NCBI GenBank assembly: GCA_958496175.1
Contig: OY292277.1
Location: 42,295,050-42,359,049, forward strand
Reading direction: 5' to 3'
DNA length: 64,000 nt
Source of the DNA: Sisyra terminalis
Taxonomy: Eukaryota; Arthropoda; Insecta; Neuroptera; Sisyridae
Made by a program: the position numbers and the translations under genes. Shown in pieces: positions 1,983-62,341 of the stretch (position 1 is the first letter of the stretch; every line of letters begins with the position of its first letter). The notes under the pieces were generated by a model that was not told the origin of the DNA, ran no database searches, and was given only the letters and a program-made list of their open reading frames with translations.

Positions 1983-2229
1983 AACAAATGATACATTGGT
2001 AAAAATATTCAGAGGACTAGGATCAAATAATATAATTGTTTGTATTTTTGTTTTTAATAAAAAATTGGCTATGATATTTCAGATCGCCTGAGGAAGGCTC
2101 AATAACCGGGCCGAAACGTCGCGCATGTAATAAATAGTTTTGACTGATTATTATTTGATCCTAGTCCTCTGAATATTTTTACCAATTTACCATCATCGAG
2201 GATCTGAAACTTTACAATAACAAATGATA
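1983..2229 (+). mobile_element. Short insertion with hammerhead-like motif (family alpha)
   Basis: An insertion of about 225 bp lies between two exact copies of AACAAATGATA (1983-1993 and 2219-2229), an 11-bp duplication. It contains a roughly 35-bp inverted repeat: 1997-2031 is the reverse complement of about 2150-2185, with a core GGTAAAAATATTCAGAGGAC. The hammerhead-like motif lies between the arms. No ORF is present. Duplication length and structure fit a small retroelement of the Penelope-like or retrozyme type better than a DNA transposon, although the internal inverted repeat is MITE-like. Confidence 0.6.
2085..2123 (+). ncRNA. Hammerhead-like ribozyme motif, family alpha
   Basis: CTGAGGA (2088-2094), then A, stem GGCTC (2096-2100), loop AATAACC, GGGCC (2108-2112), GAAAC (2113-2117), then GTC. 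CGC before the core (2085-2087) pairs with GCG after GTC (2121-2123). These match the CUGANGA and GAAA core of a type I hammerhead, with a very short stem I and collapsed stem III. The extra A before stem II is non-canonical. Activity is not established. Confidence 0.45.
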
Positions 2230-3107
2230 TGTTTTTGTATTCTGAAAACATCCAAAATGTAAATGAAATCGATAATTTACTTTCATGCTTATTAATTAAG
2301 TTTAAAATTTGATAACTATTGTTTAACTTTTGGGAAACTCTGAAGAAAATTTTGGAAAAATTACAATTTTGTGGAGATCGATAGACCCGGGTTTATCATG
2401 CCCAGTCCTAAGTCCGGCACTGGTTCAAAGAAGATTTTTTTTTGATAAATGATTTTTCATAGCCATTTATAACAAATACTCCACTCTCTGCATGGAGAGA
2501 TTACTCTCAATTTCTTTGGCGTGCCTCTTCAGGTTTAAAAGTAATAATGAGATAGTTCTTTGCGACGTACCTTGAACGTCTTTCGACCGGTATGACTTAG
2601 TCTTTGCAGTGCTAACCAGTCCGTGACTAACATCAAATACGTGCCACACTTGCAATGTTGAAAATATATTTCTTTTATATATATTTGATGCCTCTCGCGT
2701 ATATTTGACTTGTTCGATTCAATGCTTTCACCCTTTGCTTGGCAATATTGTGTGTTAATAAGTTGATCAATTTGAGTACAGAATCGAGAGATTTACTCCA
2801 CATTAATCGTACATGATGCGGAAGTGCTACTGATTTTATTGCCAGAGATTAAATAAATTACATCTTAAACTTAATTGCTCTCTTATATTTTCTTGTCTTG
2901 TCAACATTTTCTCCTTTTCTTATTCTTGCGCTGCATCCCAACACACAAACGAGATACACGATATCGAATTCATTTATATTCTAACGACCAATATTAATTA
3001 AACTGACAGAAAACAACAACTTTTAAGATAATACGGAAGAACTATCTTAATGACTATACAAAAAAAAAAAGATATATTTTCTCATCCATACTTTTCTTTT
3101 CTTACAG
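2230..3107. other. Unassigned sequence before candidate microexon
   Basis: AT-rich unique-looking DNA. A short CpG-containing stretch at 2460-2660 has an open minus frame of 62 codons with no recognised domain. On the minus strand from 2424 a sequence starting CAGTGCCGGACTTAGG resembles a transposon end, but no partner end is seen. Nothing else is supported. Confidence 0.4.
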
Positions 3108-3143
3108 ATTTTCGAGTCGGTTTCTTCGCTGCATTTCTCTAAG
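3108..3143 (+). CDS. Candidate 36-nt microexon
   Basis: A long pyrimidine tract ends in CTTTTCTTTTCTTACAG (AG at 3106-3107), a textbook acceptor. Thirty-six bases later comes AAG followed by GTAAGAAT (GT at 3144-3145), a textbook donor. The exon has no stop in the first frame (IFESVSSLHFSK) and is exactly 12 codons, as expected of a frame-preserving neuronal-type microexon. The third frame has a stop. No homologous protein is recognised. It could instead be a non-coding exon or a chance pairing of splice signals. Confidence 0.35.
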
Positions 3144-4235
3144 GTAAGAATATCAACCACTCAGATCTATTGAGTTTTTTTTTTGAAAACCAATGTTTTA
3201 TGTAAAATCCCCGCATTCATGTTTTGTCGATGGAAGATTATGTTTTAATTTCTGTAGTTATTATACTTATTTTTCAATTTCATGTCTTATGATTTATAAT
3301 GTTTCATGCCATTTTTAAATCATTAATTAATGTCTGTTCATCCCACTTAATTATAAGTCTCATATGACTACTGCTTTTTTTGAAAAATATTATTATTTGG
3401 TCATTAGAATGTTTTATGAAAATTAATTGTTTTGTGTTGTAGCTAATTAAATTGGTCGTTATTTTCTTCATATTTGATTTGGCTTACTTTTAACGTATGA
3501 TATTCTGCTTTATGAAAGGAAAAAAATATCAGGTTTTTAATGTTAGAAAAGTTATGTTTTTCATATGTCCGATATTAAGAATTTATAAGGAGAATTATAT
3601 TTTTGTGAACAGTTTTGGCTTTCAATCAACAACAAATTCAGATTTTTATAAATAAAATCAAATTTTATGAAACTTTATTTTGTCCCTTATTGTTTTTTGA
3701 TTACAAACAACAAAAAATAATTTAGGTTTACGTTTTTAAAAGTTTTAAATATCATTTTGTTATACGTTTTAATTATTTAGGTTCTAATATATATCTTTTA
3801 TTAGTTTCCATCAAATTGTCTCAACAAATTTTACTTTCACTAAACTATAACCCACTTAATCTAGAACAATTCGGGATCGATCTTCATTTAGTTATTTTAA
3901 ATAAAATTATCGTCTGATTACAATTGTTATTACTTTTATGTGATCAAAGATTATTAAAATTGGCAGAAAATGAAATGGTACAAACAATTAGGATCATTAT
4001 TATCACTTATCTGTGGCATACTGCAAATTCAAAGTGTGATTATCAGTGCTAGGCATCATAGGCATATTTAATGGCTTTTGCCCTTCAGAAGAGGTTAAGT
4101 TAAGATTTTGACTAATCTGTGTCAACATTTTTTCCCAGTTGTAATGATAACTGGTTCCCAAATTGCATTAAAACCAATATTAAGTGTTTTAATATAACTT
4201 TCAGGCGTTGTATTCTTTAATGATTATCTTTCAAC
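3144..4235. other. AT-rich DNA, nothing recognised
   Basis: If the microexon is real, this is the start of its downstream intron. I see no ORF, RNA gene or bounded repeat here. Confidence 0.4.
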
Positions 4236-4237
4236 TA

Positions 4238-4289
4238 ATCTTTAGCAACTCTAGAATAAACAAAAATCCGTAAATCGAGAAATATTGGT
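4238..4289 (-). repeat. SINE 3' body fragment
   Basis: On the minus strand this matches the SINE body: ATTTCTCGATTTACGG, a GTTTATTCTAGAGTTGC variant of the TTAACCCTAGAGTCGC segment, then TAAAGA. The tRNA-like head is missing. Confidence 0.55.
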
Positions 4290-4335
4290 TATTTTAAAAC
4301 AACTGTTCCTTGTCCACTAGTAGGTTTTATTATAC

Positions 4336-4736
4336 TTTTTAAGAAAAATTATAAAATCAAGTTTTTCAAGTTATCTGGGGTATATATCATTATTAGGGTA
4401 TATATAAGCATAATTCCGAGTATATCTTTAGTTTTTTATCTCCAAGTTATAGTTTAAGCCTCATTGGATAAATTCCATATATTTTCTCTGATTATTATTT
4501 GTACCAAATTATTGCATTATAAAATTGAATTTCCGCAATGTTTGAAGTTAAACTAATGCAATAGTTTAGATCAAATAATAATCGGATAGAATAGGTGGAA
4601 TTTATTACATGAGGCTTAAACCATAACTTGGAGATAAAAAATTAAAGATATACTCTAAATTATATTTGTATAGGGAAATTTAAACTAAAAAATATACCCT
4701 CGATAACTTGAAGAACTTGATTTCCCTATTTTTTTA
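4336..4736. mobile_element. Foldback element, ~400 bp
   Basis: Left arm about 4340-4520 and right arm about 4552-4730 are inverted copies. Shared landmarks are AAATCAAG at both outer ends, TTATCTCCAAGTTATAG with its reverse complement, AAGCCTCAT with ATGAGGCTT, and TTATTATTTG with CAAATAATAA near the centre. No ORF is present. The target duplication is not clear, so the superfamily is unknown. Confidence 0.65.
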
Positions 4737-5169
4737 AAATTTGTTAAGTTAGATATACAATACTTAGTTATTCACTTTAAAAAAATAGATTAAATTAATT
4801 TTTGTGTCAACCAAATCTTTTTAATTGACTTAAACATAATAATAATAATGGTGCAGATTTGGAAAACACATAAAAAATTGAAGTTTTTCATCTTTTTCAT
4901 GTAATTTTAAATTAAAAAGGATAATTATAGCTTTAATACGATTAAAATTAGTTTTCTTTTAATTGAACACTTTTATTCAATTCAAATTCTAACTAACTTA
5001 TTTCATTCTTTAAAGTATTCAATTTGTGGATATTTAAATTAAATGATTATAATTTAGCCACTTTTCTTGGACTAATTTAGTTCATTGTTTATCGCAAAAG
5101 ATGGAGTATAAGTAGCCCTAACAAAAGATGCAAGGAGTATGAAAATCGTAAAATGTTTATCCTTTAAAG

Positions 5170-5395
5170 CAGTGGTTCTTAGCCTTTTTGGATGTACTGA
5201 CCCCCACCTGTTTCATATCGGTATTCAACGAGTCCTTGACAAAAAATTGATATTTTCAAATTCAATATAAGCAAACAGTTATATACATAGTAGGTGTACA
5301 AAGTGATGTTTTTTCATATTGTTTATTTTTTAACATTAGAGCATTATATTTGCCGAACCTGCAAGACTAACTCACCGAACCCTTAATATCTAGAA
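5170..5395 (+). mobile_element. hAT-type 5' end fragment
   Basis: It begins CAGTGGTTCTTAGCCTTTTT, the terminal style of hAT elements whose ends read CAGTGGTTCTCAACCTT. Similar element-like text (CCGAACC, CACCGAACCC) follows. The matching right terminus ending in ACCACTG is not found, so this looks like a one-ended relic. Confidence 0.4.
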
Positions 5396-5399
5396 GTTA

Positions 5400-6675
5400 A
5401 CATTTTATAAGTTTTCGGTTGAATTACTAAACATAATAGTTGATACTTTTTTATTGATAACTGTTGATATTGTCCCTATATTTTTGTTTTGCTTTAATCA
5501 GGTATTGACTTTATAAATTACAGTTTTCTAAAAGATGAGTATCATTCCGTATTAAAAAACCAAGCCCACCATTTTAATTGTTTAACTCTGCAACTACATT
5601 AATAAAAAAAAACCTATAAAACTACAAAGGAACAAATGTATGTATTTTTTTAAAACTAAGTATACGACACGCCCTGCAAAGTAAAAGCTTATGTCGCAGT
5701 CATAATTATATTGGTAGTGATATGAGTATTAAAAAAATAAACGCTCACATTACAATAAATCAAAAAAGGTAGGCAAGTTAATGGTTCAATTTCGTAAAGT
5801 AAACACTATAAAACTTATCTATTATGACCAATTAAATTAATGACAAAACTCTAAGTTTCGTTATGAAATTTAATGTGTAAAAAAGGCGCTCATTATGCGA
5901 GTGATTTTAATTGAAAAATTGTCAATTTATTTGTAAAGCAACATAAAATCGTTTCCGTTAAAATCCACGTAATGATGGATGTAAAAAATTGATTTTCCGT
6001 TCGGTTATCTGTCGCATGTAATCAAATACATATAATTTTCAAATGAATTTTTCATAAGATTATGAAAAAGAAAAAATGAACGGAAAAGTATTAAGATATA
6101 AAACATAAATGCATAATATACAAACCACACTCATATTATACCCGTACGCATAATTACAATCGATAAAAAGTGAAACTGTATTCAAATTAAACATCTCAAA
6201 GGCATTTTTAATTTACATTGAAAATTCATTTCAATCTCAATAGATTTCATCATTTCATATTACATACAATATTAAGATATAAAAATTCATTACTTTATTC
6301 AAATTACTTACAGTCAAAAAATATTTTAATGCTCATTCATAAAAAAATTTAACGTTCTGCTTTTTCCATGCGTGCTCACCTCTAATAACTCGTACCAAAT
6401 ATTCTTAACGATTTTTAGATGCTTTTTAATTAAAGAAAAAAATCTGACATGGACAACACATCACTTCCTTGCACGCAAGTACAATGTTTGCCTACACTTC
6501 ATTAAAAATATTTATATTTTGTCAAGGCTAAGTCTCATAAATTAATCAATCTTTTTCGTTAGAAATTCAAATATTTCGTCACTTCGATAAAACAACTCTC
6601 GTTATATCATTAGTTAAAATATTTTTTTAAATTTGTTATCTTTGGTATGGAACAAAGTTAAAGATTTGCTTTTTT
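5400..6675. other. AT-rich non-repetitive DNA
   Basis: No coding or repeat structure is recognised. The stretch from about 5680 to 6130 has many short CpG-containing words and TTAAT/TTTAT core motifs and no transposon ends, so it could be host regulatory DNA, but nothing defines a boundary. Confidence 0.3.
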
Positions 6676-6679
6676 ATTG

Positions 6680-6759
6680 GTTTTTTATCGTTGTTTTATA
6701 GTTATTAAGGGGCTTAGGAACTCAGGGGTTAGTAAAAGTCTGTATATCGAGAAATATTA
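6680..6759 (-). repeat. SINE 3' body fragment
   Basis: The minus strand contains AATATTTCTCGATATACAGA, a degenerate TTAACCCTGAG segment, and AATAACTATAAAACAACGAT, matching the SINE body and tail. The tRNA-like head is missing. Confidence 0.5.
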
Positions 6760-7403
6760 GATATATATATTTATTTAAATAGATTTCAATTCTTCACTAT
6801 CTTAATGTTGCCTTTTTCAATACGAAAATTTCTAGTGATTTCATTATGGAATTCCGAGCATGAAAATAACTGATAGGATCTATTTCTGAGAAAATTCTAA
6901 ATCTTTTGATAGTTATTATTATTGTTTACTCTCGATTTAATAAAGGACGAGCATTTTTTTCAGGGGGAAAATACATTTTTATTTTATGAACTGTATATTA
7001 ACTAATTTTTTTTTTTGAAATTGACATGAGATATTGAATAACTCCCGTTGAAATGAGATTTAATAAGATTTTATTGGATTCTTTCCTCTATCTTGAGTTC
7101 GCGTTACTAATGGATGCTCCCTATTTTCCAAAAGATTCACCAGGACGAAGTTTGGAAAGTTTTAGGTTAATTGTTTTCCTTGGGTCCCTAGTTCACCTAT
7201 TGTAAGCCGAAAAGCTGTGCTTATTTCAGTAACCGACTTACAAGACGCTTTTCATCTAGTTTAGTACTGGAATCGGAAACTCCCACATTTTCATCCCTTT
7301 ATTTAAATTAAAAATATTTAATTTATTTATTTTCTCTTTCTCTTTTCCCTAAGGAATCTCCAATTGTGTATTATTTACTTGAAATGTTTACTTTCATGGG
7401 TCA

Positions 7404-8128
7404 TCCCACCATATTTTTATATATATAATTCTTTTGTACAGGTGTCACTGAATTCTTCCTTAACCACTGAACCGATTTTGTTGAATTTTTCTTTGTGTAT
7501 TTAAGTGAAACCCTGGATAGTTTAAATTTATTTTACAATAGGGGCTCTATTATTGAAAAAGGTGAAACAAGAGAACAAACTTAGCCTGATTAACAATCGA
7601 AATTTCAAATTTAATAATCAAAAAACCGTTAAACGTGCATTATTACCTCTTATCTATGTACAATATACAATCATAATATACGTATAAATAAAACTGAAAT
7701 GGCAAAGTGTGAAATGTTTAAAATGTACAAATGACATCACATTTTTGCTAAATTTTGATTGAATATTTTCCAAATTTACTGTTTTAAAATTTTTGTGTCC
7801 ATCTATTCGTACGCCTTCTTTTATCTATAGAAGGATAAACAGATTTTTATGAAATTTGATATTTAGATTCAATATAATGTCCTTCTCACTATAGGCTATG
7901 TATCATTACATAAAAATAATAAGAGAAGGCATCCCCTTCGCAAAACTGTGGGATGAAAAAACAATTTTCTGTAGTTGTGTGATCTATCATTAGAAACGTT
8001 TTTAAAGAAATTATCTTGCATTTTTTTTAAGTTTTAATTAATAATTATTAATGATTTTCTTATACCATTTTTACCAAATAAACGAGATGCTAACGTTTGG
8101 GCAGAGTAACGTCTGCCAGGTCCGCTAG
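7404..8128 (+). mobile_element. Non-autonomous Helitron
   Basis: The 3' end is diagnostic: the hairpin GGCAGA (8100-8105)/TCTGCC (8112-8117) with a 6-nt loop, then AGGTCCG, then CTAG (8125-8128) followed by host T. The 5' end reads TC at 7404 preceded by host A, giving the A/T insertion site expected for rolling-circle elements. Inside, 7440-7520 contains the ACCGATTTTGTTGAA..TTTTTC block and AGTGAAACCCTGGATAG, familiar from insect Helitrons. No Rep/helicase coding is present, so it depended on an autonomous relative. The 3' end is more certain than the 5' end. Confidence 0.75.
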
Positions 8129-8390
8129 TAGTACATTATAAGCGTATTAACTTGGTTTACTTTTAATAATTCGCTTTTAATATATTAAATTTGAGCTTTA
8201 TTACCTGAGTAACTATAAAGACAATACCGGTGATTGCTGGTCGTAAAAATGACGATTGTTTGTTTATTTTGGATAAACTTAAGCCAAATGATATCAAATA
8301 ACTGACTTTTAAGTTCCGTGAAAGTTTTGATACCAATTTTGTGTCTTAGGTCTTTCTTTGAAATCGGTAATTAGTTTTTAAATTTTTCAA

Positions 8391-8552
8391 TCTTTTTTTT
8401 AATTGCTATTTACCGTCGCTTTATAACTACTAAGGATTTTAGCAATCTAGGGATAATAAAAATACGAATCGAAATATATCGAAAATTTCCTCGGTACGAG
8501 GATCGAGCAAAACCTACTAATTTAGAAGTGGTCACCAAGACCACTCGGCCTT
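8391..8552 (-). repeat. tRNA-derived SINE copy
   Basis: On the minus strand it reads CCGAGTGGTCTTGGTGACC (A-box region of a Leu/Ser-type tRNA head), GGTTTTGCTCGATCCTCG (B-box region), then ATTTTCGATATATTTCGATT, CCCTAGATTGCTAAA and TTATAAAGCGACGGTAAAT, ending in an A-rich tail. This is one of the most complete copies here. Transcription by RNA polymerase III from the internal boxes is family knowledge. Confidence 0.75.
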
Positions 8553-8559
8553 AATAATC

Positions 8560-10022
8560 TTTGTATTAACTTTTCTTTGAGTTAATATAACTATTTACTG
8601 ATTTTTTGTTTAAAGGAAACAAATAAATACGAACTGCTCTATTCTGTGTCAGTTCTGTTTTATTTTTTTGTTCTGTTTTGTCCTTGTTTTATTTAGTTAT
8701 GTTCTTCTTTGTTTCTTTTTCAAGCGCAAATTATGGAGATACTTACGCCTTTTATCTAACGCCATTTCCCATTTTCATCGAAATTTCAAAACCGCAATAG
8801 TTTCTTATGTAAAATATAAATAAGTATAAGGCACTGAAAAAAATAATTCTTTATTGAAATTAGAGTATTAAAATATGTCACTTCAATTATTCTCCTATCG
8901 CTTAGCGCCATTTTTAATTCAATCAAGCTTCACATGAAAATATAAATAAAGCTCAACATCTGCGTGTTACTTTCGTACAAAATTGCTTTTTTTCCGTACA
9001 TGTATTTTCGATGTAAAATTAACGCCAAAAAAACGATAAACCTTGTTTTATTTATACCTCCATATTTTAGATGTTTGACAGTTCAATTTCCTGTATTTTA
9101 TTTAGTTTTTAGCGCAAAGAATTGCACTGTAAATTACTTGTTTTGTTGGAGAAGTTGCCTGAATATTTTAAGGGGAGCATTGGGTTTTTATTGTATTTTT
9201 AAAGTGAACATCTCTTATGGCGTTCAGGTGTTTTGAAATATAATTAAAAAAAAATCTTATTCAACATTTAATATGTTTTTTGACAGTAGACGGTTATTTA
9301 AGAGATGATATTTCAAGTAATAGTCTCGCCTTATGAAAGTGACAACAATTTTTATTTTTATGATCAAATTGTGGTATTCCAATGTGCGGGAAATATTTGT
9401 AAAGTGGATAGAAATTTTTGAAAAAAAAAAATGGTTTGTTCTATTTAGCTATTACTTTGTCTTTTATAACCATTAAAAAATGCTTACAAATAATGGGGAC
9501 ACAAGTCCTTTGTTACTACGAATATCGATTCCCCAAATAGAATCGATTTTTTTAATAGTAGTAGTATAATATTATACTGTTACTCATTTAGTATTGCAGT
9601 CTATTGTAGCAAATTATATCACTCAAACATTTCGTTTTTTCCTTAAATATCCGGATTTAACATTTTTGATCACCAAATTATACACCAATCCAAAAATATT
9701 GGCACAAAAACTTAATTCTCAATAATTTACTCCCTCGAACCACTCGCCTCACACCAATCAAATTATCACTCAAAATACCATTTTTCGGTTCGGCCTTCAA
9801 AAACCTGAAATCAATCGTACGTAACGGTCTGAAAACCAAACATTTTCGTAGGTCAAGTCTGGAAATCCTGCAAAAAATTAAGACCTCAAAAACGTTGCAC
9901 GCCATATAGGTACCCAAGTGCTCGTTATGCACCGATCAGAAAAGAAAATTATAGTCCAATCAGGATCATATTGCATGATTGAAATGCTCAAAAGAAATTC
10001 TCGCCGGCTTTTTTCTTCCTAG
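8560..10022. other. Unassigned DNA upstream of candidate exon
   Basis: The minus-strand open frame at 9678-9932 and the plus frame at 8964-9236 match no family I recognise. The part at 9670-9960 is richer in C and G (ACTCGCCTCACACC, CGTACGTAACGG) than its surroundings and lies just before the candidate exon at 10023, so it may be host sequence. Confidence 0.3.
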
Positions 10023-10660: not shown

Positions 10661-10916
10661 AACTAGATCAGTAATGGTGAAACTTTGACCCGTGGGTCAG
10701 ACAGTGACTCACGTAAGCTTTTTAACTGACCCACGATGGCTAGGCAACCATTTGTTATGTTTGTAGAAAGAGACTTCCATAGCACCTGTATCGTCCCCTC
10801 TCTGTTTCACCTTGTAAGGTGTCTGGTGCCATGGGCACCACGCGCTAATACTAAGAAAAAAATATGAAAAAAATTTGACCCATACTTCAAAAAGCTTCGC
10901 CATCCCTGAACTAGAT
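10661..10916 (+). mobile_element. hAT MITE copy A, with 8-bp duplication
   Basis: A 240-bp element (10669-10908) starts CAGTAATGGTGAAACTTT and ends AAAGCTTCGCCATCCCTG, near-perfect inverted termini. Exact copies of AACTAGAT flank it (10661-10668, 10909-10916). The 8-bp duplication and CAG..CTG ends are hAT hallmarks. The body (TGACCCACGATGGCTAGGC, GAGACTTCCATAGCAC) recurs at 24977, 25341 and 47700. The minus-strand open frame across it is incidental. Confidence 0.88.
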
Positions 10917-11592: not shown

Positions 11593-11599
11593 CGTTTAT

Positions 11600-12280: not shown

Positions 12281-12281
12281 T

Positions 12282-12675: not shown

Positions 12676-12679
12676 ATAT

Positions 12680-14960: not shown

Positions 14961-14967
14961 CCAATAT

Positions 14968-15700: not shown

Positions 15701-16004
15701 CTAAACGATTTGCTCAATAAAAAAGCTTCGATATTTTTTTCAAAATTCTTACATAAGAGTTATTATTTTTTTGAAGTCTACAAGGTTTGATTGAAACTTT
15801 TAAACTTGAAATTTGTTTAGTATTTGACCGATAAAAAATGAAGTATAAGGAATTATAGTAATAGCTGTAACTTATAATTACAAATTATACAAATAACATT
15901 TCGAACACTGCTTTATACTTCAACGTTAGGTATTTAGAAACATTAATGATTCTTATTTTCTGGATACTTTTTAATATTTGATGTTTTTATTAAATTTTTT
16001 GTAC

Positions 16005-16038
16005 TAGGTTTCGCTACTTTCGCAGCTTCTTCAGGTAC
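16005..16038 (-). ncRNA. Hammerhead-like motif, gamma left copy
   Basis: On the minus strand: CTGAAGA (16034-16028), A, GCTGC, loop GAAA, GTAGC, GAAAC (16012-16008), then CTA and GTAC. GTAC also precedes the core, so a 4-bp stem I can form. It differs from the right copy at the base after GAAAC. Confidence 0.45.
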
Positions 16039-16308
16039 TACAAACAGACAGTAACAATATTACATAATTGATACAATAAATGCACTTAAACACAAAATAC
16101 ACTTAATAAAATACCTCAATTACAAACATCAAATTTTTAAATCCATGTAAAATAATCTTTCTCGTAATAATTCAATAAGTTTAAAATAAGATTATTTTAC
16201 ATGGATTTAAAAATTTAATGTTTGTAATTGAGGTATTTTATTAAGTGTATTTTGTGTTTAAGTGCATTTATTGTATCAATTATGTAATATTGTTACTGTC
16301 TGTTTGTA

Positions 16309-16343
16309 GTACCTGAAGAAGCTGCGAAAGTAGCGAAACGTAG
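16309..16343 (+). ncRNA. Hammerhead-like motif, gamma right copy
   Basis: CTGAAGA (16313-16319), A, GCTGC (16321-16325), loop GAAA, GTAGC (16330-16334), GAAAC (16335-16339), GTA, then GTAC. Upstream GTAC (16309-16312) pairs with downstream GTAC. Stem II has four Watson-Crick pairs plus one G-U. Confidence 0.5.
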
Positions 16344-16842
16344 TACAAAAAATTTAATAAAAACATCAAATATTAAAAAGTATCCAGAAAATAAGAATCA
16401 TTAATGCATAATAAAACCATGGATAAAAATTCCAACAAAGTATTTAGAAACCATCTCTTAATTCATCAATGGATGCATAGAAAAACATCTTATAATTATT
16501 TTCCCCAACATATAGGGATCAATTTCAACAAATTTATTTCTCAAAACATGAATTTCTGTGGGAAATCAAAAACCTAAAGCACATTTGATTATTATCCATA
16601 TCTTATTCTTAAATTAAATATATTTTATTTAGGATGAATATCAAAATTGGAATACTTAAAGAATAAAATAAAAGCTTTTTTACGAACTTGATTTTTTGAA
16701 CTACTAGCTATCAAACATAGGCTAGTTAAACCAAATTTTGAATATTTAACCTGAAAACTACAAAATTGTTATTACTTCAACTAATCAAAAATAATAAGTA
16801 CTAAATAAACACTACTTAAAGATTTACAATGTAAAGAACCAG

Positions 16843-17060: not shown

Positions 17061-17064
17061 GGCC

Positions 17065-20620: not shown

Positions 20621-20810
20621 GTATTTAAAGATTTTTTTTTATTATTAATCGTTGCTTTATGCTCAGTGGCGAGGTTTTTAACGACTCTAGAGTTAATAAA
20701 AACCTAAAATCAATAAATATTGAAAATTTGCTCGATACGATAATCGAATCCAACACATGCCCATTTAAGAGTGGCCATCTTGACCACTCGGCCACCGATA
20801 GGGTATTTAA
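20621..20810 (-). repeat. Nearly complete SINE with target duplication
   Basis: GTATTTAA repeats at 20621-20628 and 20803-20810. The minus strand in between reads GGTGGCCGAGTGGTCAAGAT (A box), GGATTCGATTATCGTATCGA (B-box region), TTTTCAATATTTATTGATTT, TTAACTCTAGAGTCGTTAAA and a T-rich 3' end on the plus strand. A Leu/Ser-like tRNA head joined to an unrelated body defines the family. Confidence 0.78.
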
Positions 20811-24968: not shown

Positions 24969-25239
24969 GTCTAAAGCAGTAATGGCGAACCTATGACCCA
25001 TGGATCGGATATTGATCCACAAAAGCTTTTTAACTAATCCACGATGATAGCTAGGCAACCCTTTGTTTGTAATGTTTGTAAAAAAGACTTCCATAGCAAT
25101 TGTATCACCCCCTTTCTGTTTCACTTTGTGAGGTGCTAGTGGGCGCCGTGCACATTAATGACCCACAAGCTAGTACTAATAGAAATATAAACAATATTTG
25201 ACCCACGTCTCAAAAAGGTTCGCCATCCCTGGTCTAAGA
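24969..25239 (+). mobile_element. hAT MITE copy B
   Basis: Element 24977-25231 starts CAGTAATGGCGAACC and ends AAGGTTCGCCATCCCTG. Flanks GTCTAAAG and GTCTAAGA match at 6 of 8 bases. The minus open frame (24936-25124) is incidental. Confidence 0.82.
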
Positions 25240-25340
25240 GATACATTTTTATCTAGTAGAAAACTATCTTAAGGATATGGCCTATCCATGAGTTAAAGTA
25301 TCGACCCTTTAGGTACAATACATACTTAATTTTACATTTA

Positions 25341-25555
25341 ACCCACGAAAGTTTTTTAACTGATCCACGATGGCTAGACAACCCTTTGTTTGTTATATTT
25401 GTAGAAAGAGACTTCCATAGCACTTGTAGCGCCCCCTCTCTGTTTTACTTTGTAAAACACTAATGAGCGCCATGTACATTAGTGGCTCACAAACTAGTAC
25501 TAAAAATGATATAAACAAAAGCTAATCCATGACTCCAAAAGGTTCACCATCCCTG
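25341..25555 (+). mobile_element. hAT MITE copy C, left end missing
   Basis: Begins inside the family at ACCCACGAAAGTTTTTTAAC and runs to the intact right end GGTTCACCATCCCTG. The missing left terminus fits its origin by tandem duplication rather than fresh transposition. Confidence 0.75.
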
Positions 25556-25650
25556 ATGTAACAGATACATTTTTATCTATTTGAAAACTTTCTTATGGAT
25601 ATTGTCTATTCATGAGTGAAAATACGAATTCTTTATGGATTAGATGAAAA

Positions 25651-27032: not shown

Positions 27033-27140
27033 AATTATTTAATTTTTTAGCAGGAAAGTGGACTTAAAGGATATAAATCCATATACTAATAATTAATTCA
27101 GCGACGTTTCGGTCCTTTATTTGACCTTCATCAGGCCTCT
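27033..27140 (-). mobile_element. Hammerhead-like retroelement, family beta
   Basis: Its 3' part recurs at 40773-40854 (plus) and 63503-63576 (minus), sharing AAGTCCACTTTCCTGC and TAAAAAATTAAATAATT. On the minus strand it carries the motif, then about 70 bp of 3' sequence ending at 27033. The 5' limit beyond 27140 is not determined, and no duplication was found here. Confidence 0.55.
27103..27138 (-). ncRNA. Hammerhead-like motif, family beta
   Basis: On the minus strand: CTGATGA (27134-27128), A, GGTC, loop AAATAAA, GGACC, GAAAC (27110-27106), GTC, then GCT. GGC before the core pairs with GCT (one G-U). CTGATGA is the commonest natural hammerhead core. Confidence 0.5.
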
Positions 27141-42741: not shown

Positions 42742-42882
42742 TTTTTTAATTATTATTTACTATTGCTTTATAACTACTAAGGTCTTTAGCGACTATAGGG
42801 TTAATAAAAATCCGTAATTGAAAAGTATCAAAAAGCTCGATGCAGTTTTGGAGCGGTCACCTAGACCTCTCGACCACCGATA
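42742..42882 (-). repeat. tRNA-derived SINE copy, internal head deletion
   Basis: Minus strand: GGTGGTCGAGAGGTCTAGGT, GACCGCTCCAAAACTGC, then body ATACTTTTCAATTACGG, TTAACCCTATAGTCGCTAAA, TATAAAGCAATAGTAAATAA. The B-box part is missing. Confidence 0.7.
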
Positions 42883-47699: not shown

Positions 47700-48205
47700 A
47701 TCTTGCTACTTGATCCACACAAGCCTTTTAACTGATCCACAATGGCTTGGCGACCATTTGTTCGTTATGTTAGTAGAAAGAGACTTCTATAGCACTTGTA
47801 TCACCCCCTTTCAACTTGAGGTGCTATCAGGTACCATGCACATTACAAAACAGCAAAATGGGATCCCGCGATCTAGCGGGATCCAACTCAATTTTAGGCT
47901 CTGTGGGATCCCGCAATATCTTACGGATCAGCAATGCGAATCCGCAAACATCAGCTGGTGCAAATTTATTCAAATTTGCGCTTTTAATCTGTTCAGCGAC
48001 GCGTTTTACGAGTAACGTTGCCGTCAGGGATTGCAATCCAGCGAAGTGGGATCCCGCAGGATCCCGCTGTTATGAATTCAATCCAGCAAAAATCCCGCGG
48101 GATTGGAAACAGTGCGGGATTGCAATCCCTAGTGACTCACAAGCTAGTACTAAAAAATATGAACAAAATATGACCCACGCCTCAAAAATGTTCGCCATAT
48201 ATATT
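47700..48205 (+). mobile_element. hAT MITE copy D, interrupted
   Basis: Family text is clear on both sides: TTTTAACTGATCCACAATGG, AGAGACTTCTATAGCAC and GTACCATGCACATTA at the left; TAGTGACTCACAAGCTAGTA and AATATGACCCACGCC at the right. Both termini are eroded (CTTGATCCACA at the start, GTTCGCCAT without CCCTG at the end). A GC-rich insertion (47848-48129) splits it. The overlapping frames of 101 and 140 codons are artefacts of this mosaic. Confidence 0.75.
47848..48129. mobile_element. GC-rich insertion packed with palindromes
   Basis: Inserted between CACATTA and TAGTGACTC of MITE copy D. It contains GGGATCCCGC or close variants at least four times, CCCGCGGG, GCAAATTT..AAATTTGC (8-bp arms), and GGGATTGCAATCC twice, once at its right edge. 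The two GGGATTGCAATCC copies (48027 and about 48116) could be TIRs of a ~106-bp subelement. Base content is far richer in G and C than the window. At most TA or TTA is duplicated. Class unknown. Confidence 0.6.
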
Positions 48206-48209
48206 CTAG

Positions 48210-49868: not shown

Positions 49869-50217
49869 TTATCAATTAATAGATGATAAAATTCAGATCT
49901 CAGCTTTTATTTTTTTAAATAAAAAGACAATTCCGGTTGTTTAAGATCGGTTTTTTTATTTAATATTTTTATTATTCAATTAGCTACGTTTCGTTACTTA
50001 TCATAACTTCATTCTTAGCTTCTTGATTCACAAAAATAAAATATTTTCAATTTAAATTCAATAAAAAAAATTTTTTACTATCAAGATGCCTGATGAAGTT
50101 ACGATAAGTAACGAAACGTAGCTAATTGAATAATAAAAACATTAAATAAAAAAGCCGATCTTAAACAACCTGAATTGTCTTCTTATTTCAAAAAAAAAGA
50201 AAAAAGTTATCAATTAA
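49869..50217. mobile_element. Inverted twin hammerhead-like insertion (family delta)
   Basis: TTATCAATTAA flanks the insertion exactly (49869-49879, 50207-50217). Arms of about 110 bp (49914-50014 and 50090-50192) are inverted copies sharing GACAATTC.GGTTGTTTAAGATCGG or its complement and TTCAATTAGCTACGTTTCG. The right arm keeps an intact motif; the left has lost the CTGANGA box. Same architecture as 15930-16451 but unrelated sequence. Confidence 0.68.
50087..50125 (+). ncRNA. Hammerhead-like motif, family delta
   Basis: CTGATGA (50090-50096), A, GTTAC (50098-50102), loop GATAA, GTAAC (50108-50112), GAAAC (50113-50117), GTA, then GCTA. Stem II is perfect. Stem I is only GC/GC. In the left arm the stem becomes GTTAT/GTAAC, still pairable with one U-G. 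Confidence 0.5.
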
Positions 50218-50800: not shown

Positions 50801-50809
50801 CTTTGAATT

Positions 50810-52680: not shown

Positions 52681-52685
52681 GATGC

Positions 52686-53734: not shown

Positions 53735-53739
53735 GTAGT

Positions 53740-55050
53740 TGTATTCCAACCGAAGTTGGGAAGCCTTAGTTCGTTCAGGTTTCGACTCTAGAAGAAATAA
53801 TTTTTAAGCTGTGATTCCAGTTTCAACTTTAGAGCTAATTCCAGTCTAATTGTTTAGACGAATTGTTAGAAGCTCCCATCAGCCCCTAAAACATATCCAA
53901 AATTCAAATAAATCGATTCACAAGTTTCTAAGAATTTTTTTTTTCTGATTGCCAGCTTTTTTCGATTTTTGACGAAACGGTAATCCTTAGGGATGTGAAA
54001 CTTGCCGAATCAATGTATCTTAATAGTACCAACATACCCTGAAATTATAAACCAAATTCCCGTCTGGGGACAGAAATCGTCTCGGACGATCTTAGAGGAC
54101 TGTACATAGTAGTTTCCATAACACATTACGCCTTTGACTATAATCTTAACTTTTCAAATAAGCAGTAGTTCAAGTATTGGCCTATTTTCATTCATTCTTA
54201 TAAGTTATTTCATTACCATATTTTATGTCAACAAAAAGCTAATTAAACCGAAAACTCATTTGTGAAGAAAAAAAAGTACTAAAACATCTTAAACTTCTGT
54301 TTTTTTTACGACTAATTTACTTCCTCTTTGACCATTTTAATAAATGCTTAACCAGTTTTACTATAGAAAAGAACTGAAGTAAAAGACATTTTTAGAACTT
54401 TTTTTCTCCCTTTTAGAGCTCTAAACCTCTTAATCGTTTTCAAACTAGATTCTGTCATTTCGATGATAATATTCTCTTTTTTTCTCCCATTCGGTCATAA
54501 CATTTTGTCAGAAAACACTTTATAGTTGGTACAACACCAATAAAAAATTAGACTTAAACGTATAATTAAAGTAGGAAAAAAATAATCTAATAAAAATGTT
54601 ATTAATGCCTTCAGATACACAACGCAAAGCCAAGTCTCTTTTCATTAAACATCTATAAATTCTTTAGCGAGATCTTGACCGGTCATTTAAAAAAAATAGC
54701 TACTGGATTACTGAAAACGTGTGTGGTCATCATAAATATTCGTTTAAGTTTGTATCGGCTACTTAAGTGGGTATTAAACGTTTTATATTGACCATATTGG
54801 CCAGATAAAGTAAGACAAAATTCACGTTTCCTCTATGTACTTATCTTTTTTTCCGAACGGATTGGTGATCGATATGGGCAATAATATCAATTTACTTTAA
54901 TTTTATTGGAAAAAAAAAACGATTAGTTATCAAATAAGCTCGTCTAAAATGATTCATTTGGAAGAAAAGGGAAACGACTCCTTGTTGAAGTTGCTTATAC
55001 GCAACAGTGGCCGAGATCCGTTTTTCCTGGCAATTATTAAAATGTTATTT
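53740..55050. other. Nothing recognised
   Basis: AT-rich DNA without supported features. Confidence 0.35.
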
Positions 55051-55052
55051 CA

Positions 55053-56547
55053 GATTCAATATGAATAAATAAAATTAAATTAAATTTATTGCTCGTATAA
55101 TATATGTACAAATACTTTTGTTTACAATTTGTTTTTAATTTTAAGTGTGATGTAACTTGCATAAACCATCCAAACGGCGTTTGTAGATCCTGATCTAGGA
55201 TAGAGATTAGTTTACGATATTGTAGTTGTTTATTTGAGTTGGGGAAAAATAGATGGCAATTCTTAACAACTCCGAATATTGTTTATGCTTTCGGTTTGTT
55301 ATAAGATCATATGTCTTATTCTTTTATGTTTGTATTTTCTATATTTGTAGAGTAGGTCATCGAGGGTGTAGTCACTGATGCTTCTGATTATTTGGCTAGG
55401 GCCACTTTTACAATTTGTATAGAATTTCCGCGACAAAGTAAGGATATATAAGTCTATCGATAGTATCTTTAATTCCTCATGAAGGTCGTATACCTTGTAT
55501 TTGGCTGGATAGTTTCCCAGCATTCTTAGTAATTTATTTTGGACTTTTTGTATTGTCAGATATTTGGTTTTGCTTACTGAACTCCAAACTGGACATCATA
55601 TGTAAGCACTGGTCTGAGCACTGTTTTATAAATTATTAATTTATTGCTGGTAGAGAGTCTTTATTGTCTATTTAGCAATGGATATAAGATCTTAGTTCGG
55701 GCCATTAATTTGTTTTTAGATAGTTTAATGTGTTCAGCAAAGTTGAGTCTGTAATCCAGTTGCATCCCCAAGTATCTAACTGTTTTTACCCATTCTATAT
55801 TTTTCCCATTTATTTATACATTTTTATGCTTGATGGGTCTTCTTCTAGTGAATAGGATAGCTTGAGTTTTATTATCATTGGCCTTTATTTTCTATTTTTT
55901 TAAAAAAAATCATTATTCTTTTTAAGGCCTTGGTTATTCTGTTGGTCACTGTATCAGCTCTCCAGGAGAATGCAAAAATTGCTGTATCGTCAGCATATAG
56001 GGAAAAGAAAGTTTCGGGTGTCCGTGGAATATAATTTATTTATAGAATAAATAGTATAGGTTCCATAATAGACCCTTGAGGGACTCCAGCCTTAATTAAT
56101 CTGCTATTAGACGTTTCATTTTTGATTTGCACACAAAATTGGCGCTCTTTGAGATAACTCCACGTTATTATTATAATGTATCTTGGGAATTTCATTTTAA
56201 TTAGTTTGTATATTAGCCCTTCATGCCATAGAGTATCAAAATCCTTTTTTATGTCAAGTAGAGTCATTCCCGTGTGTTTATTAATGTTAAAGGCGTCAGT
56301 TATATTAATATGGTCGCATATTCTGTAAAGTTGCATTGTTGTGGAATGCCTGAGTTTGAATTCAAACTGTTCGGGTATTAATATTTTTCCTTTGGTAATA
56401 TGTCCGTTTATTTGCCTTAGGATAGTTTGTTCGGCGATTTTGCTTAAGGTTGTTAGGCTGATAGGTCTATAACTAGTGGGACTGTATGCTGACTTACCAG
56501 GTTTGAGGATCGGAATCAGTTTAGATTTTTTTGATGATTCAATATGA
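55053..56547 (-). mobile_element. 5'-truncated Jockey-like LINE insertion with 12-bp duplication
   Basis: GATTCAATATGA occurs at 55053-55064 and 56536-56547. Between lie about 1.47 kb of reverse-transcriptase sequence on the minus strand, ending in an A/T-rich tail (TTTAATTTAATTTTATTTAT). The insertion starts inside the RT domain, the usual outcome of incomplete target-primed reverse transcription. Both boundaries are seen directly. The Jockey-like assignment rests on RT motifs. Confidence 0.85.
55299..56535 (-). pseudogene. LINE ORF2 reverse transcriptase, truncated and disrupted
   Basis: From 56534 downward: KKSKLIPILKPGK and YRPISL (finger region), LLDIKKDFDTLWHEGL (motif A), AGVPQGSIMEPILF (motif B, with E where G is usual), a stop, then LYADDTAIFAFS (motif C; YADD at 55997-55986). 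Later frames give VRYLGMQLDYRLNFAEHI and VLRPVLTYDVQFG, then DLHEELKILSID near the C-terminus. The first ~165 codons are open; beyond the stop there is at least one frameshift and several stops. Endonuclease domain and ORF1 are absent through 5' truncation. Confidence 0.85.
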
Positions 56548-56549
56548 TT

Positions 56550-58355
56550 GATTTATCCGACACTAATCATTGATGTAGCGAAGGATAACGAGGGTCGAAG
56601 ATTTTGCGCATCATTGCGTTTAATGATTTACATTAATTCTTGTTTTTCTATAAGAAGGAAACTGAAGAAAAAAAACCCTTTCATAATCAGTTACCAAGTG
56701 AAAATGATTAACACAGTGGTAATAATAACGAACTTATTGTATTCAATATGATGAAACTGAGGAAAGTCTAAACTGTCCGCTTGTTTTTCTTGACGAAATC
56801 GGTCGAACGAATGAGGCAAAAACGAATGATTTAAATCAATTAAATTGAAATAAATGGAAAATTGATTGTAAAGTACTTAGATTTCCAGCTCATTTAACTT
56901 TGTCACTCAAGCTAGTCGAGGTGGGTAGCGTCGAATATAGCTCGGATTACTCCTCGATTTAACTGTGCATTCTTCATGCCCTATTAAATACAAACAAACA
57001 GTGTTGGTTGTTCGATTTGCTTGGAGGAAAAATCGATAGATTTTTCCTCGATCGATTAATTATCGATTCATTTAAATTAGATGAGTCGGGTTTTTTCATG
57101 AACGAAATGCGTTGAAAACGAGAAACAGTTTCGTTGCAAATTTGCCCATGTTGGCTTGATTGATTAACTGTACTGGATTTTTAAGCCGTAACGCCGACAA
57201 TTTGCAACGTCAGTAATTATGTTCAATATAAATATCACAGTTCAAATCAAATTATCAGGAAGCACTCGATTATGATTAATGCAATCCCGGCGGTATATAA
57301 TGCAGTCCAAGATGACTTAAGTAAGCGTACTGGATCATACACATATTGCTAGACGATTAAGAAGTGAAATTTTCTGCATTGCATTGATACAAAGTAGATA
57401 AAAGTAAAAAGTGCAAGTAACAGAGCCAATGTTGTTTTATCTGAAAAATAATTCCGTCTTATTAATATATTTCTTAATCTAATTTAAGTTCCTTCTCGAA
57501 ACTTTCTTATTTGAAGTCAGGAAAAGGTCGCTCGTATAATTATGAGAGTTTCCTTATGAAATTATTGCATCATACCCATCATATCCATCGTCATCATCAT
57601 AATTTACAAATTAAAGAAAAAAAAAACCGAAATCAATGATTTTTCTTGATGCGTTTCGCGTGCATTATGCACGAGATTGATAATGAAAATATTGCAATCG
57701 TCATCTTCGTCATCATCCATCAGAAGGTATTAACAGCAAGTATCCATATAAAGATAAAGGTGGCTGGAAATAACGGTACAGTCAACCTACCTATCACATC
57801 TACTATTACTATGAAATACGATTTCAAACTCGAATCGTTTTATATTAAAACGTACACGTTTACATTTAACACTATCATGTTAAATTCCAGAAGCCACTAC
57901 TTAAATCAAACGTTTCTGGTTTTTGCATACGTTTGAAAAATGCACAATTATTTCAGAAATGATATTAATCCGTGGTAGTTATGCAAACTATTTGTCTTAT
58001 AAACGTCAAATTAATCACTCGGATGGAAGTTTTACATATTTTTCGGCCAAAAATCTAACAATTTGCCAACTATTTTTTTCTTACACTCAAATGATAAATT
58101 CCTATAATAAATATACCCAATTCGTCCATGCATTAGAGAATGAAATATCTTTAAATTCCATTATTCTATTTAAATTATTTATCCCAAATTAAGATTTTAT
58201 TTAATATGTATTCGTCATTTTACAATTTGCTTAATGCACAAAGCAATGAGTAAAATTTATCATATTGATATAATAATACAAAATCATACAAAAATAAATT
58301 TTTGTGATATCAAAGAAAAAAAATAGCTATCTAAAAATGAAGGAATATAAGACAA
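56550..58355. other. Unassigned DNA with a homeobox-like AT/CG patch
   Basis: Around 57025-57075 ATCGAT/CGATTAATTATCGAT words are dense. 57100-57330 is CpG-containing and free of recognised repeats, a possible regulatory patch. Frames at 57646-57936 and 57923-58192 have no domain I recognise. Confidence 0.3.
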
Positions 58356-58359
58356 TAAT

Positions 58360-59165
58360 TGACAGTATCCTTCAATCCCGTCCTCCATTCCGAATTTGGG
58401 TCATAGTATTCTTCACTTATTCCTTTCTGGGGATCATTCCTGTAGATTCTCAGGCTATATTCTTTTTAATCTTCTTTGTATCAATGGTAGTTTAAATATT
58501 TTCGTGCTCATTGCATCGTTCCTTATGTTTTAGATTTACTTCTTGATTACGTCTTTTATAAAAGGTATATTTAGGTCATCATGCAATATTTGGTTGCCAA
58601 TTTGCCAAGACGCTATAGCTATGGATCGTAAGATTTTTGATTGTGATCTGTGAATGATATTAGTATTTGATACTTTAATGCAACTCCAAAGTTTCAGCCT
58701 ATATGCCCAGATTGGCTTTATCATTGTTTTCTATAACTCCATACTGCTAACATTCAATTATCAAAATTAATTTAAATTAAATTTAATTTAATGTGGATAA
58801 CGGGAATTTGAATATAAATCTGCGACTCGTTATTTTAATGTTGACCAACAGTAGGCACTATGAAGGTATGATTTATTGGTTGTTAATTTTATTAACCTGT
58901 TTGAATTATTGATTGGCATAATTTTTTTTATAAGTCACCATTTTTTTTTATTTTAGCATCTATTTGTATTTTTTTGGCCACTGTGTGGGGTTTCTATGTA
59001 GGTTTTTTGTCCAATGTGATACCCAAATATTTTACATTATCCTTTTGTGAAACAGTGATGTTATTAGTTTTAATCACGAGTGCCGTTTTTTCGTTGTTAT
59101 TGTACTAAAAGTAATTTGAGTTGACTTTTGAGGATTGACGTTCATTTTCCAGCCTTGGAAGTTTG
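58360..59165 (-). pseudogene. Second Jockey-like LINE RT/C-terminal relic
   Basis: Minus strand from 59160: GWKMNVNPQKSTQITF, VSQKDNVKYLGITLDKKPT (RT palm/thumb region), then MIKPIWAYRLKLWSC, HRSQSKILRSI and HDDLNIPFIKDVIKK (C-terminal LINE block), then KKIKK near 58450. Frameshifts and stops break it. About 120 bp (roughly 58745-58868) with no LINE similarity interrupts it between NKSYL and MIKPIW. Differs in sequence from the 55-kb LINE. Confidence 0.75.
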
Positions 59166-59220
59166 AAAATTAATAAATGTTTCTAAAATAAAACTTAACT
59201 ATTTACAAAATCCGTATAAA

Positions 59221-59280
59221 GCCTACTGGTGGCCGAGTGGTCTAGGTGACCGCTTCAAAACTGGTAGGTTTATTCGACTA
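59221..59280 (+). repeat. SINE tRNA-like head, well preserved
   Basis: GCCTACTGGTGGCCGAGTGG starts it; the A box TGGCCGAGTGG is intact (59230-59240). CTAGGTGACCGCTTCAAAAC and a degenerate B-box region follow. The body is missing. The A box matches Leu/Ser-type tRNA genes. Confidence 0.68.
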
Positions 59281-59331
59281 GTAGATTAAAAATAGCACAG
59301 AGAATAAGACGTTGGATTATTGCAGGCTCAA

Positions 59332-59366
59332 GTATACCTGTATACCGGATTTTTGATCAGGTATAC
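59332..59366. repeat. Perfect 9-bp inverted repeat
   Basis: GTATACCTG (59332-59340) and CAGGTATAC (59358-59366) with a 17-bp spacer. Meaning unknown. Confidence 0.8.
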
Positions 59367-59369
59367 GAA

Positions 59370-62300
59370 ATTTCGATTGTACCACGTTAATTTTATATTT
59401 TTATATAATTTTATGATACCAGATTCACAAGTCTAATATATTTTTTTTGATTTCCCCAATATGGGATATGGGTTTATATAATTTTAAGTTAATTCTTATT
59501 CATTTTAAAGTTTAGTACTCTTTTGAAAAATTAGAATTTTTCAGTACATTCGATATTCTATACTAAATACTAGACGAATTTGTCAAAAAAGTGATTAACA
59601 TATAGTAACCCTCCTGGTGTAATAGATAAATTATTAAAAAGGTCCCTTGAAGCATAATTTGAAAACCATTATACATTTAGACTAATTACTTATTATAATT
59701 GATGAGAAAAAAATCAAAACTTACTTTTGTTTTGATACCATGTTTCTGCGCCCTCTGTGACTTAATTTTGGTATCATTGGTTGCACTTTTCAATAAATTT
59801 TATCAAAATAAACAAATTTATTAGACCAAAAATATTTTTCATTTAGCCAATTAGTACTAACAATGAATTGCATATTGCTTCAATGTGGGGCCTACTCCCC
59901 AGAAAGAACTTCTACCGAACTCTCCCAAAGGTATGAACAACACTATACCCTTCTTATTACATCCACTATTCCCTATATTTCATCTCTTGGAATTCTAAAT
60001 CATTAATGACCCAGTAGTTAGAAAATGACTTAAAAAAAAACAAATTAATAAAATGAGAATTCAATGTTCCATCAATTCTCTTTGGGGATGCCGTATTAAC
60101 GGTTTAGGTTTCGATTAAATCAATTATTCATCCAACTGATTTATAGGAAATATAAGATATATTATGCAATATATCCTGTATATTGTATACACAGTATAAT
60201 TGTTCAAAGTCAGCGAAAAAATCTTATTTTGAAGAAAATATAAACCAGTTATAAACCAAAGCAAAATCAATTCTTTTTAAAACTTCAAGATAAAGAAGTT
60301 TAAATTTTAATATTTGTGGGTCTTTATATAGGATTATTCTTATTATAGGAACGCACTTAATTCACTGAACTATAAACATTTAATTAGTGCAAAAGAAATA
60401 GTTGTACATTCCTTTAATTTGAAGAAAAAAGTAATGAAGAAATTTAAAATGTAAAACTAAAAATTTGCCTAACATAATCTTGATAAACAGTCGGTATTCA
60501 CATGCAATAAATCTTACATGAAATGAAGCATTTTTATTCCATTTTTATTTCAAGTAATTAGTTAAAATTCGGTAGTTCATTTCCAAAGTATTTTTATTAT
60601 AGCATCGCAAAGATGATCGCATTTCCATGAAGAAGTTTACATCCCATTAATTAACTTAGTTGATTTAAGGTAAAAACTTGTTTTTGTTATGAATCAAAAG
60701 CAAAAATTTACTGCAAAACTTTTAATAATTTTTTTTCCCACCCATAAAAAACAGACAACTAAGTTACAAACTATATGCTAAACTTTTACCACTTAAATTC
60801 GATGAAAGTAAATAACTAACTTTTCCAATTAATGTCATCCCCAATTCAACTTCATATATCACAAAACTTTTCCCCCAGCCTCTTTCCCTACAGAATTTCA
60901 AAGTTTGCATTTCGGCGACAATTGACACAACTATTGTATCAACTTAATTTCCTTCTCAACCTCCTCCCCCTCACTTACCTGTCTCGCCTGTCTTTTTCCC
61001 CTTATTTTAATGCAAACGTCATGATTGGCAAAATTGCTATCGATAAACGATTCACATTTTTCGAACGATAGTGTCAATTTATGCACATTATATAAAACGA
61101 TGTTTAACGCTTGAGTAAATTTCTATAGTTTATGTAAACGTAGAATTATCGTGTAACTTGTAACCGACGTTTTATTTCTACTATCATTATTAAACGAGCG
61201 TTTTTAGTTCGCGGCAATTTTTGACGAGACTCCAACAAACCATGGCTGCTAAAAGATCCGATATTTGCTAGAAAACCATCCAGAAACTTTCCCTTAACCA
61301 AAAAAAAAAAAAAATGCCTCCAACAATTCTATGCTCAATCAAATATTTACATTTGGTTTCTAAGGTCAATTATTCATCTTTTCAGCAATTAATTATGTAA
61401 TAATTGTGTGGTATTTTGTCCCACATAAGCCAATTTTGCCTTTGTTCTTCTTTACTTTCATTTATTATGTTTTCTAAGCATTTCTTCTTATTTAAATTGA
61501 TTATTATAACAGAAGCAAATAGAAAACGGAGAGAACAGTTACTTGTTCATGATTAATATCATTAAAATAACAGGAGAATAATCATGTTAGTTAGGTATAT
61601 GGTAGATATGTAGACAGAAATGGGTTGAAAAAAATAGAGGATGAATAATTAGCAATTAAATTAATTAAAAGACAAAAGCAATTTAACAGATGATGTACTG
61701 ATAAGGTCGTCTCTTGAAAAAATGATGCATTACAATTATTACATTACAATTTTTTCATCTAACATTGTACTGGTAACTAATAATTTTTTTCCGAATTGGC
61801 TATTTTTATGACCAATGAAGTATGGAACTTAGCATAGTAACATACTTTTTGTTATCTTATGGTTTTGAAATTTAATTAGGTAATAAGAAAAACTTCTTAT
61901 GTTTATTTGTGTGTTGAATCTCATTTATGTTGGTTTAATATTAGTTGATTATTTCTTAGGGAACTTGTAAAGAAATAATTTAAAGTTAAATATTAAAGCT
62001 TTGCAAGTTTCATTGGTTTATTTTCAAACTTTTCCAAGCAATCTAAAAACATTTTTTTTTTCACTAGTTTAACTATTTGCAAAATTGTTTGCTTTATTAT
62101 TGAGATCATTAAGGGTTCGTAGGAATGGTACTTGACTTGGGTCACTACTCAACAGTAGACCTTTTGTATTTTTGATGGTACTCTCATTATTGGTACCAAA
62201 TTCGCACTAGATGATGGTATTTTTAATCACTTGAAATCAATTAATTGAAGAGTTAATATAGTAAATTTTGTTATAGCGATGCAACTGCAACTATTCAAGG
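59370..62300. other. Unassigned DNA, possible minus-strand donor
   Basis: On the minus strand GCGAGACAG/GTAAGTGAGG (exon edge at 60979) is a consensus donor. About 110 bp upstream of it on that strand lies TTTTATATAATG. This could be a short first exon, but there is no other support. The plus frame at 60832-61071 lies across it and is not supported. Confidence 0.28.
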
Positions 62301-62302
62301 TA

Positions 62303-62341
62303 TTGCCTGAAGAAGTTGTGAAACAAACCAACGAAACTTGC
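62303..62341 (+). ncRNA. Hammerhead-like motif, family epsilon
   Basis: CTGAAGA (62307-62313), A, GTTG (62315-62318), 10-nt loop, CAAC (62329-62332), GAAAC (62333-62337), TT, then GCAA. TTGC before the core (62303-62306) pairs perfectly with GCAA. The boundary of its host element is unclear; SINE body sequence begins about 15 bp downstream. Confidence 0.42.

Follow-up and report, generated by a model that had tools for sequence, protein, structure and literature searches.

Hammerhead motifs lacking stem III in Sisyra terminalis very probably derive from Penelope-like retrotransposons

The window analyzed here is a 64,000-nucleotide stretch of the Sisyra terminalis genome (contig OY292277.1, positions 42,295,050 to 42,359,049), in which a preliminary description based on the letters alone had reported five unrelated sequences sharing one covarying hammerhead-like fold. 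Our analysis indicates that these five sites are almost certainly minimal type I hammerhead motifs from the pseudo-long terminal repeats (pLTRs) of several families of Penelope-like retrotransposons (Penelope-like elements, PLEs). By analogy with other PLEs, the motifs are probably self-cleaving; those in the window are likely to be inert remnants. The motif had been put forward as a new kind of variant, a claim that is not supported: according to earlier reports, PLE pLTRs contain minimal type I hammerheads that have neither helix III nor loop contacts and may cleave as dimers (PMC6155905, PMC7761336, PMC6466107). The window motifs are an instance of this described class.

Results

The five window sites share a hammerhead fold with covarying stems

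All five sites read as first described, with CTGANGA, an extra A, a paired stem II, GAAAC, and pairing flanks (Table 1). The type I core CUGANGA...GAAA is present with stem II in between, and stem III is absent or reduced, with GAAACGTH directly after stem II; copy 5 (62307) ends in GAAACTTG, hence ACGT without its G. The predicted NUH cleavage triplets are GTC, GTA, GTC, and GTA in copies 1 to 4, in line with the preliminary description; copy 5 has CTT, and the CTA also mentioned there belongs to the inverted partner of copy 2, at 16034(-), as opposed to GTA at 16313(+). This partner was the only inverted copy noted originally. Additional, decayed partners were found at 49981-50023(-) and 62001-62043(-), so that an inverted partner adjoins three of the five window copies, two of these partners being decayed. 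No partner of copy 3 was found in the window.

A two-strand scan of the window for CTGANGA, zero or one extra base, a stem of at least 4 bp, and GAAA returned the five sites and 16034(-), with one extra base in all six. The same search on 200 dinucleotide shuffles of the window gave, on average, 0.185 sites when every form was counted and 0.005 when both the extra base and GAAAC were required, which excludes a chance origin. A covariance model built from 24 copies (5 from the window and 19 from the genome) and run over the window with filters off recovered the five sites (43.8 to 55.5 bits) along with the partners at 16001-16040(-) and 49981-50023(-).

Covariation in two helices had also been claimed, and the 24-sequence alignment bears this out. 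Stems I and II contained 93.2% standard pairs, compared with 62.1% when the 3′ letters were re-dealt, and 57 cells changed on both sides, against 16.4 after re-dealing. The covariation score was 0.790, whereas sliding the partner by one to three columns reduced it to 0.06 to 0.10. Pairs in which both sides change numbered six, a count not above that of shuffles (mean, 5.5), and copies within one family are not independent. In stem I, 91.7% of the cells were paired, with both-sides changes in two of three pairs; its length was 2 to 4 bp in 22 of 29 distinct copies and 0 to 1 bp in three, with a mean of 3.5 bp versus 2.2 bp re-dealt (maximum, 3.1 bp). Across 33 distinct strand pairs, 92% of stem II cells were paired, versus 60% re-dealt (maximum, 73% in 5,000); its first G-C pair is invariant, the genome copies having been collected by a pattern that demands this pair. 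Likewise, the G of ACGT is present in 23 of the 24 aligned rows, at least 18 of which were collected by a pattern requiring it. Judged from the alignment, the motif is a well-supported hammerhead fold in which stems I and II covary. Co-folding of two motifs yielded mixed structures with uninformative energies and was not used.

One unpaired base precedes stem II

In the canonical hammerhead, stem II follows directly after A9, with no inserted base. Each of the six sites from the window scan carries one inserted base at this point, which makes the motif a variant rather than a textbook type I hammerhead. The core, the collapsed stem III, and the single extra nucleotide originally proposed are all supported by the window sites. 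Throughout the genome (376.6 Mb in 11 contigs), the base before stem II is A in 7,891 matches and one of the other three bases in 223 (T for the most part among 100 listed). It is lacking in at most 9; three of these only stretch across an ordinary copy, intact or decayed, and two resemble single-base deletions. When zero, one, or two bases were allowed in 234 kb of DNA from this genome, all 55 distinct sites with a stem of at least 5 bp had exactly one (41 A and 14 T); these loci partly overlap and most were selected for motifs already carrying the base, so that the genome counts are the better test. The inserted base is kept across about 15 different sequences of stem II, as grouped by eye, and it recurs in the distant second PLE family described below. 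A further proposal, which we consider rather unlikely, is that this unpaired base is a fixed structural part of this PLE hammerhead lineage, that it may be the scar of a nested AUG (A9-U-G), and that it may keep the core from acting until remodeling by another RNA or by the element protein, which would make translation and cleavage mutually exclusive.

The motifs are associated with Penelope-like coding regions

The link to Penelope-like elements suggested in the preliminary description gained support from the genome locus L283, where two same-strand motifs, 4096(-) and 1488(-), lie one in each flanking repeat. They are separated by an interrupted coding region, with frames of 462, 212, and 146 amino acids, that reads as a Penelope reverse transcriptase (RT; ...WFRYVDDTFVIW...) and endonuclease (...GVYKISCSCGKVYIGETGRFVNTRLKEHRR...). 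RVT_1 scored 32.9 bits in the related copy L287 (cut-off, 29.6) and 23.0 bits, below the cut-off, in L283. Read by eye, the L283 endonuclease has the residues GVY...YIGETGR...TRLKEH, a pattern from which we tentatively take it to be of the GIY-YIG type. NCBIfam returned weak RT rows only for the PLE frame, and no relatives of this frame were found in viral contigs or, by sequence, in solved structures. Upstream in L283, at 4259-4400, lies an inverted repeat copy of the PLE whose end reaches further than that of the right-hand copy. It starts within the motif, its break falling in the hammerhead core, as in window copy 4.

The endonuclease homology search uncovered at least 152 places, with 150 of the 1,298 candidates scored; open frames of 820 to 854 amino acids are present at some of them. 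When 37 endonuclease rows were compared with a partial list of T-family motifs on contigs C1 and C2, 17 had a listed motif (15 motifs) no more than 1 kb downstream, in every case on the same strand; the distance was exactly 164 bp in 8 rows and 135 to 169 bp in 13. In L285, which shares its stem II family with window copy 4, an endonuclease frame 29% identical to that of L283 lies between head-to-head motifs. Twelve frames from the window and the loci were set aside: they gave helicase and CNH-domain fragments, a coiled coil, two RT fragments taken as long interspersed nuclear elements (LINEs), or nothing.

A second PLE family, with endonuclease matches 34 to 35% identical and some open frames of about 839 amino acids, carries another hammerhead motif, CTGATGA-A-GATTGC-TTG-GCAATC-GAA-ATACGTAT-C, followed by TGG that pairs with CCA upstream of the core. 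It was read by eye, having been missed by covariance model R1, in seven of eight short stretches (L294 to L298, L300, and L301; e.g., L294:255-289), six times downstream of the endonuclease and once on the 5′ side of the L294 copy. The eighth stretch (L299) has a decayed motif of the first kind. This motif shares the inserted A and has a palindromic AUACGUAU instead of stem III, which could fold alone into 2 bp with an ACGU loop or form a longer duplex across two motifs.

In L283, the ATG of the RT-endonuclease frame is inside the motif and begins at core position A9, placing the predicted cleavage site 28 nt past the start codon; in the Anolis carolinensis element PAc (Poseidon), the hammerhead is cut 26 bp past the start codon (PMC11167929). 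This overlap would fit a sequence retained for some other reason, such as protein binding or start-codon context, with the ribozyme dead in this lineage, and according to the same source cleavage was dispensable for PAc insertion in vitro. Such an explanation is improbable: unlike L283 and PAc, most copies have AAG at the place of the ATG, yet the core and the covarying stems are kept, even if the collecting pattern demanded the core. In four copies from families other than GTTAC (L009, L028, L007, and window copy 2), an ATG located 74 to 85 nt past the motif may be the start of a frame.

Copies are abundant and often paired head-to-head

The strict pattern CTGANGAAGN{8,30}CGAAACGTH, which demands the core and the absence of stem III, had 7,891 exact matches in the genome (3,894 + 3,997), compared with one for the reversed-pattern control. 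Near-identical copies of the GGCTC, GGTC, GCTGC, and GTTAC types were among the matches listed, so that calling the five sites "unrelated" was wrong for these types and is doubtful for copy 5. Among matches to a looser pattern, stem II reached at least 4 bp in 26 of 30 loci of this genome but in only 4 of 120 prokaryote and 15 of 120 viral matches listed; those in the prokaryote and viral collections are mostly chance. One viral match with a 7-bp stem (L081) was rejected, the frames of its contig resembling ordinary phage. RF00008 had no match in the whole genome, and the controls were equally without a match.

In the first 7.1 Mb of C1, the 100 listed places had 23 neighbors within 700 bp, 21 of them head-to-head and 2 tail-to-tail, the latter joining members of unlike stem II families. 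Those head-to-head pairs that were examined form inverted repeats with their 3′ ends outward. In seven GTTAC-family pairs, one arm ends near ...CTTCTTATTTAAAAAA and the other continues for about 31 nt, ATAAAAGCTGAGATCTGAATTTTATCATCTA. These seven pairs suggested a strand bias of the tail, which its genome count (436 + 474) ruled out. Most of the copies read are short insertions that lack a reading frame, and often they are arranged as head-to-head inverted pairs.

Short noncoding units in high copy number with type I hammerheads are also features of metazoan retrozymes. These small nonautonomous non-LTR elements carry canonical type I hammerheads, spread in the form of circular RNAs, and co-occur with PLE motifs in animals, according to two reports (PMC7229834, PMC7761336). 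Retrozymes are nevertheless a most improbable source of the motifs. Their tandem 150- to 450-bp units have no counterpart here, with none of the 100 listed places having a same-strand listed neighbor within 700 bp; in addition, stem III is absent, and RT-endonuclease frames are attached in some families. An equally remote alternative is a hairpin-bearing miniature inverted-repeat transposable element or foldback DNA transposon whose terminal inverted repeats bear an incidental likeness to a hammerhead, since four of the five window copies are in or beside an inverted repeat, yet many listed places are solo, the arms of the GTTAC family end at differing points, RT and endonuclease frames occur in some families, and the core is constant while the stems covary.

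The Penelope-like context, made up of L283, the endonuclease rows, the head-to-head repeats, and the one-family tail, argues that the five sites represent element families rather than unrelated sequences. Several results speak against this assignment or its catalytic corollary. The pattern counts are of copies, not of independent events. Rfam 15 had no match in the window at the gathering score and, at a relaxed E-value, no hammerhead in copy 4 and ten genome loci; its microRNA rows were taken as long inverted repeats scoring as hairpins. Pfam did not recognize a GIY-YIG domain in the L283 endonuclease even at an E-value of 10, and for 20 of the 37 endonuclease rows the partial list contained no downstream motif. 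No attached reading frame was found for the GGCTC, GCTGC, GGTC, and GTTG window families. Finally, in the only test so far published in which a PLE motif was combined with its protein, cleavage of PAc was unneeded for insertion in vitro and no RNA ends were seen at the cut site (PMC11167929).

Table 1. Hammerhead motifs and associated inverted repeats in the window
Feature	Position	Strand	Details
Minimal hammerhead copy 1	2082..2124	+	Stem II GGCTC/GGGCC; stem I CGC/GCG; predicted cleavage after 2120, GTC/G; 51.0 bits
Inverted repeat around copy 1	1988..2193		Arms 1988-2032 and 2149-2193; left arm is the inverted 3′ flank, without hammerhead
Minimal hammerhead copy 2	16307..16346	+	Stem II GCTGC/GTAGC; stem I GTAC/GTAC; predicted cleavage after 16342, GTA/G; 44.3 bits
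Inverted partner of copy 2	16001..16040	-	35.2 bits; GAAACCTA where copy 2 has GAAACGTA
Head-to-head inverted repeat, both copy 2 hammerheads inside	15941..16406		96% over 467 columns; 3′ ends outward
Minimal hammerhead copy 3	27099..27140	-	Stem II GGTC/GACC; stem I GGC/GCT including one G-T pair; predicted cleavage GTC/G; 53.2 bits
Minimal hammerhead copy 4	50084..50124	+	Stem II GTTAC/GTAAC; stem I GC/GC; predicted cleavage GTA/G; 55.5 bits
Inverted partner of copy 4	49981..50023	-	28.8 bits; likeness begins within core, CTG not intact
Head-to-head inverted repeat of copy 4	49880..50215		Left arm continues into the tail (reverse complement, 49880-49910); right arm without tail
Minimal hammerhead copy 5	62301..62343	+	Stem II GTTG/CAAC; stem I TTGC/GCAA; ACGT minus its G, CTT/G; 43.8 bits
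Decayed inverted partner of copy 5	62001..62043	-	8.9 bits, E-value 4 (weak alone); same GAAACTTGCAA; 62000-62042 aligns with 62302-62344 at 81%

Other repeats in the window

Large nested inverted repeats of another family (910-1131/1520-1741 and 1137-1295/1357-1515; 89 to 91%) contain no covariance-model match. A dispersed repeat family is located at 25046-25635, 10700-10802, and 47710-47812 and is partly tandem with a step of 323 to 324 bp. Repeats with GGTGGCCGAGTGGTCTAGGTGACCGC or its relatives occur at 20755-20809, 42843-42878, and 59215-59269; ARAGORN called no tRNA in them, and they look like the tRNA-Ser-derived head of a short interspersed nuclear element. A reverse transcriptase frame fragment at 56040-56552 (-) (RVT_1, 64.4 bits), apparently LINE-type, has no adjoining hammerhead.

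Discussion

Earlier reports place PLE minimal hammerheads in the thousands per animal genome (PMC6155905, PMC7229834, PMC7761336, PMC6466107; citing Cervera and de la Pena 2014 and Lunse, Weinberg, and Breaker 2017). The motifs described here have in common with them the lack of helix III, the pLTR location, thousands of copies, and tandem motifs, and differ in stem sequences that are peculiar to this genome. In Penelope families of Adineta vaga (Pen2a_Av and kin), two direct pLTRs flank the frame and an inverted pLTR adjoins; inverted pLTRs are mostly head-to-head, a 31-bp tail is optional on one of them, and palindromes lie at the pLTR 5′ end (PMC3846280). The pLTRs, the inverted partial copy, the head-to-head form, the palindromes, and a one-sided tail of about 31 nt recur in S. 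terminalis. The A. vaga elements differ in their low copy number, compared with thousands of copies here, and that report does not mention ribozymes. The terminons of bdelloid telomeric PLEs also have PLE-type hammerheads (PMC6431247); unlike terminons, neither the loci L001 to L030 nor the window contained (ACACCC)n, (TCACCC)n, or (TTAGG)n stretches.

Published work on other PLEs suggests how such motifs may operate. A transcript across two pLTRs would carry two motifs, with stems I and II forming in each. The ACGU that replaces stem III is a palindrome without a loop, so it would pair only between two motifs, yielding a dimer. Alternatively, the element protein would stabilize the fold; the PAc motif reportedly cleaved only when the element protein was added (PMC11167929). 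Cleavage after NUH would then release unit-length RNA. Cleavage, dimerization, and help from a protein are all proposed here by analogy with those elements.

The absence of Rfam 15 matches in the window at the gathering score implies that Rfam-based annotation would miss such motifs. With 7,891 strict matches in 376.6 Mb, this genome shows how abundant the described class may become, and its near-invariant inserted base is a feature perhaps worth a second look. The copies offer a natural data set on the features that a minimal hammerhead has to retain, the inserted base included.

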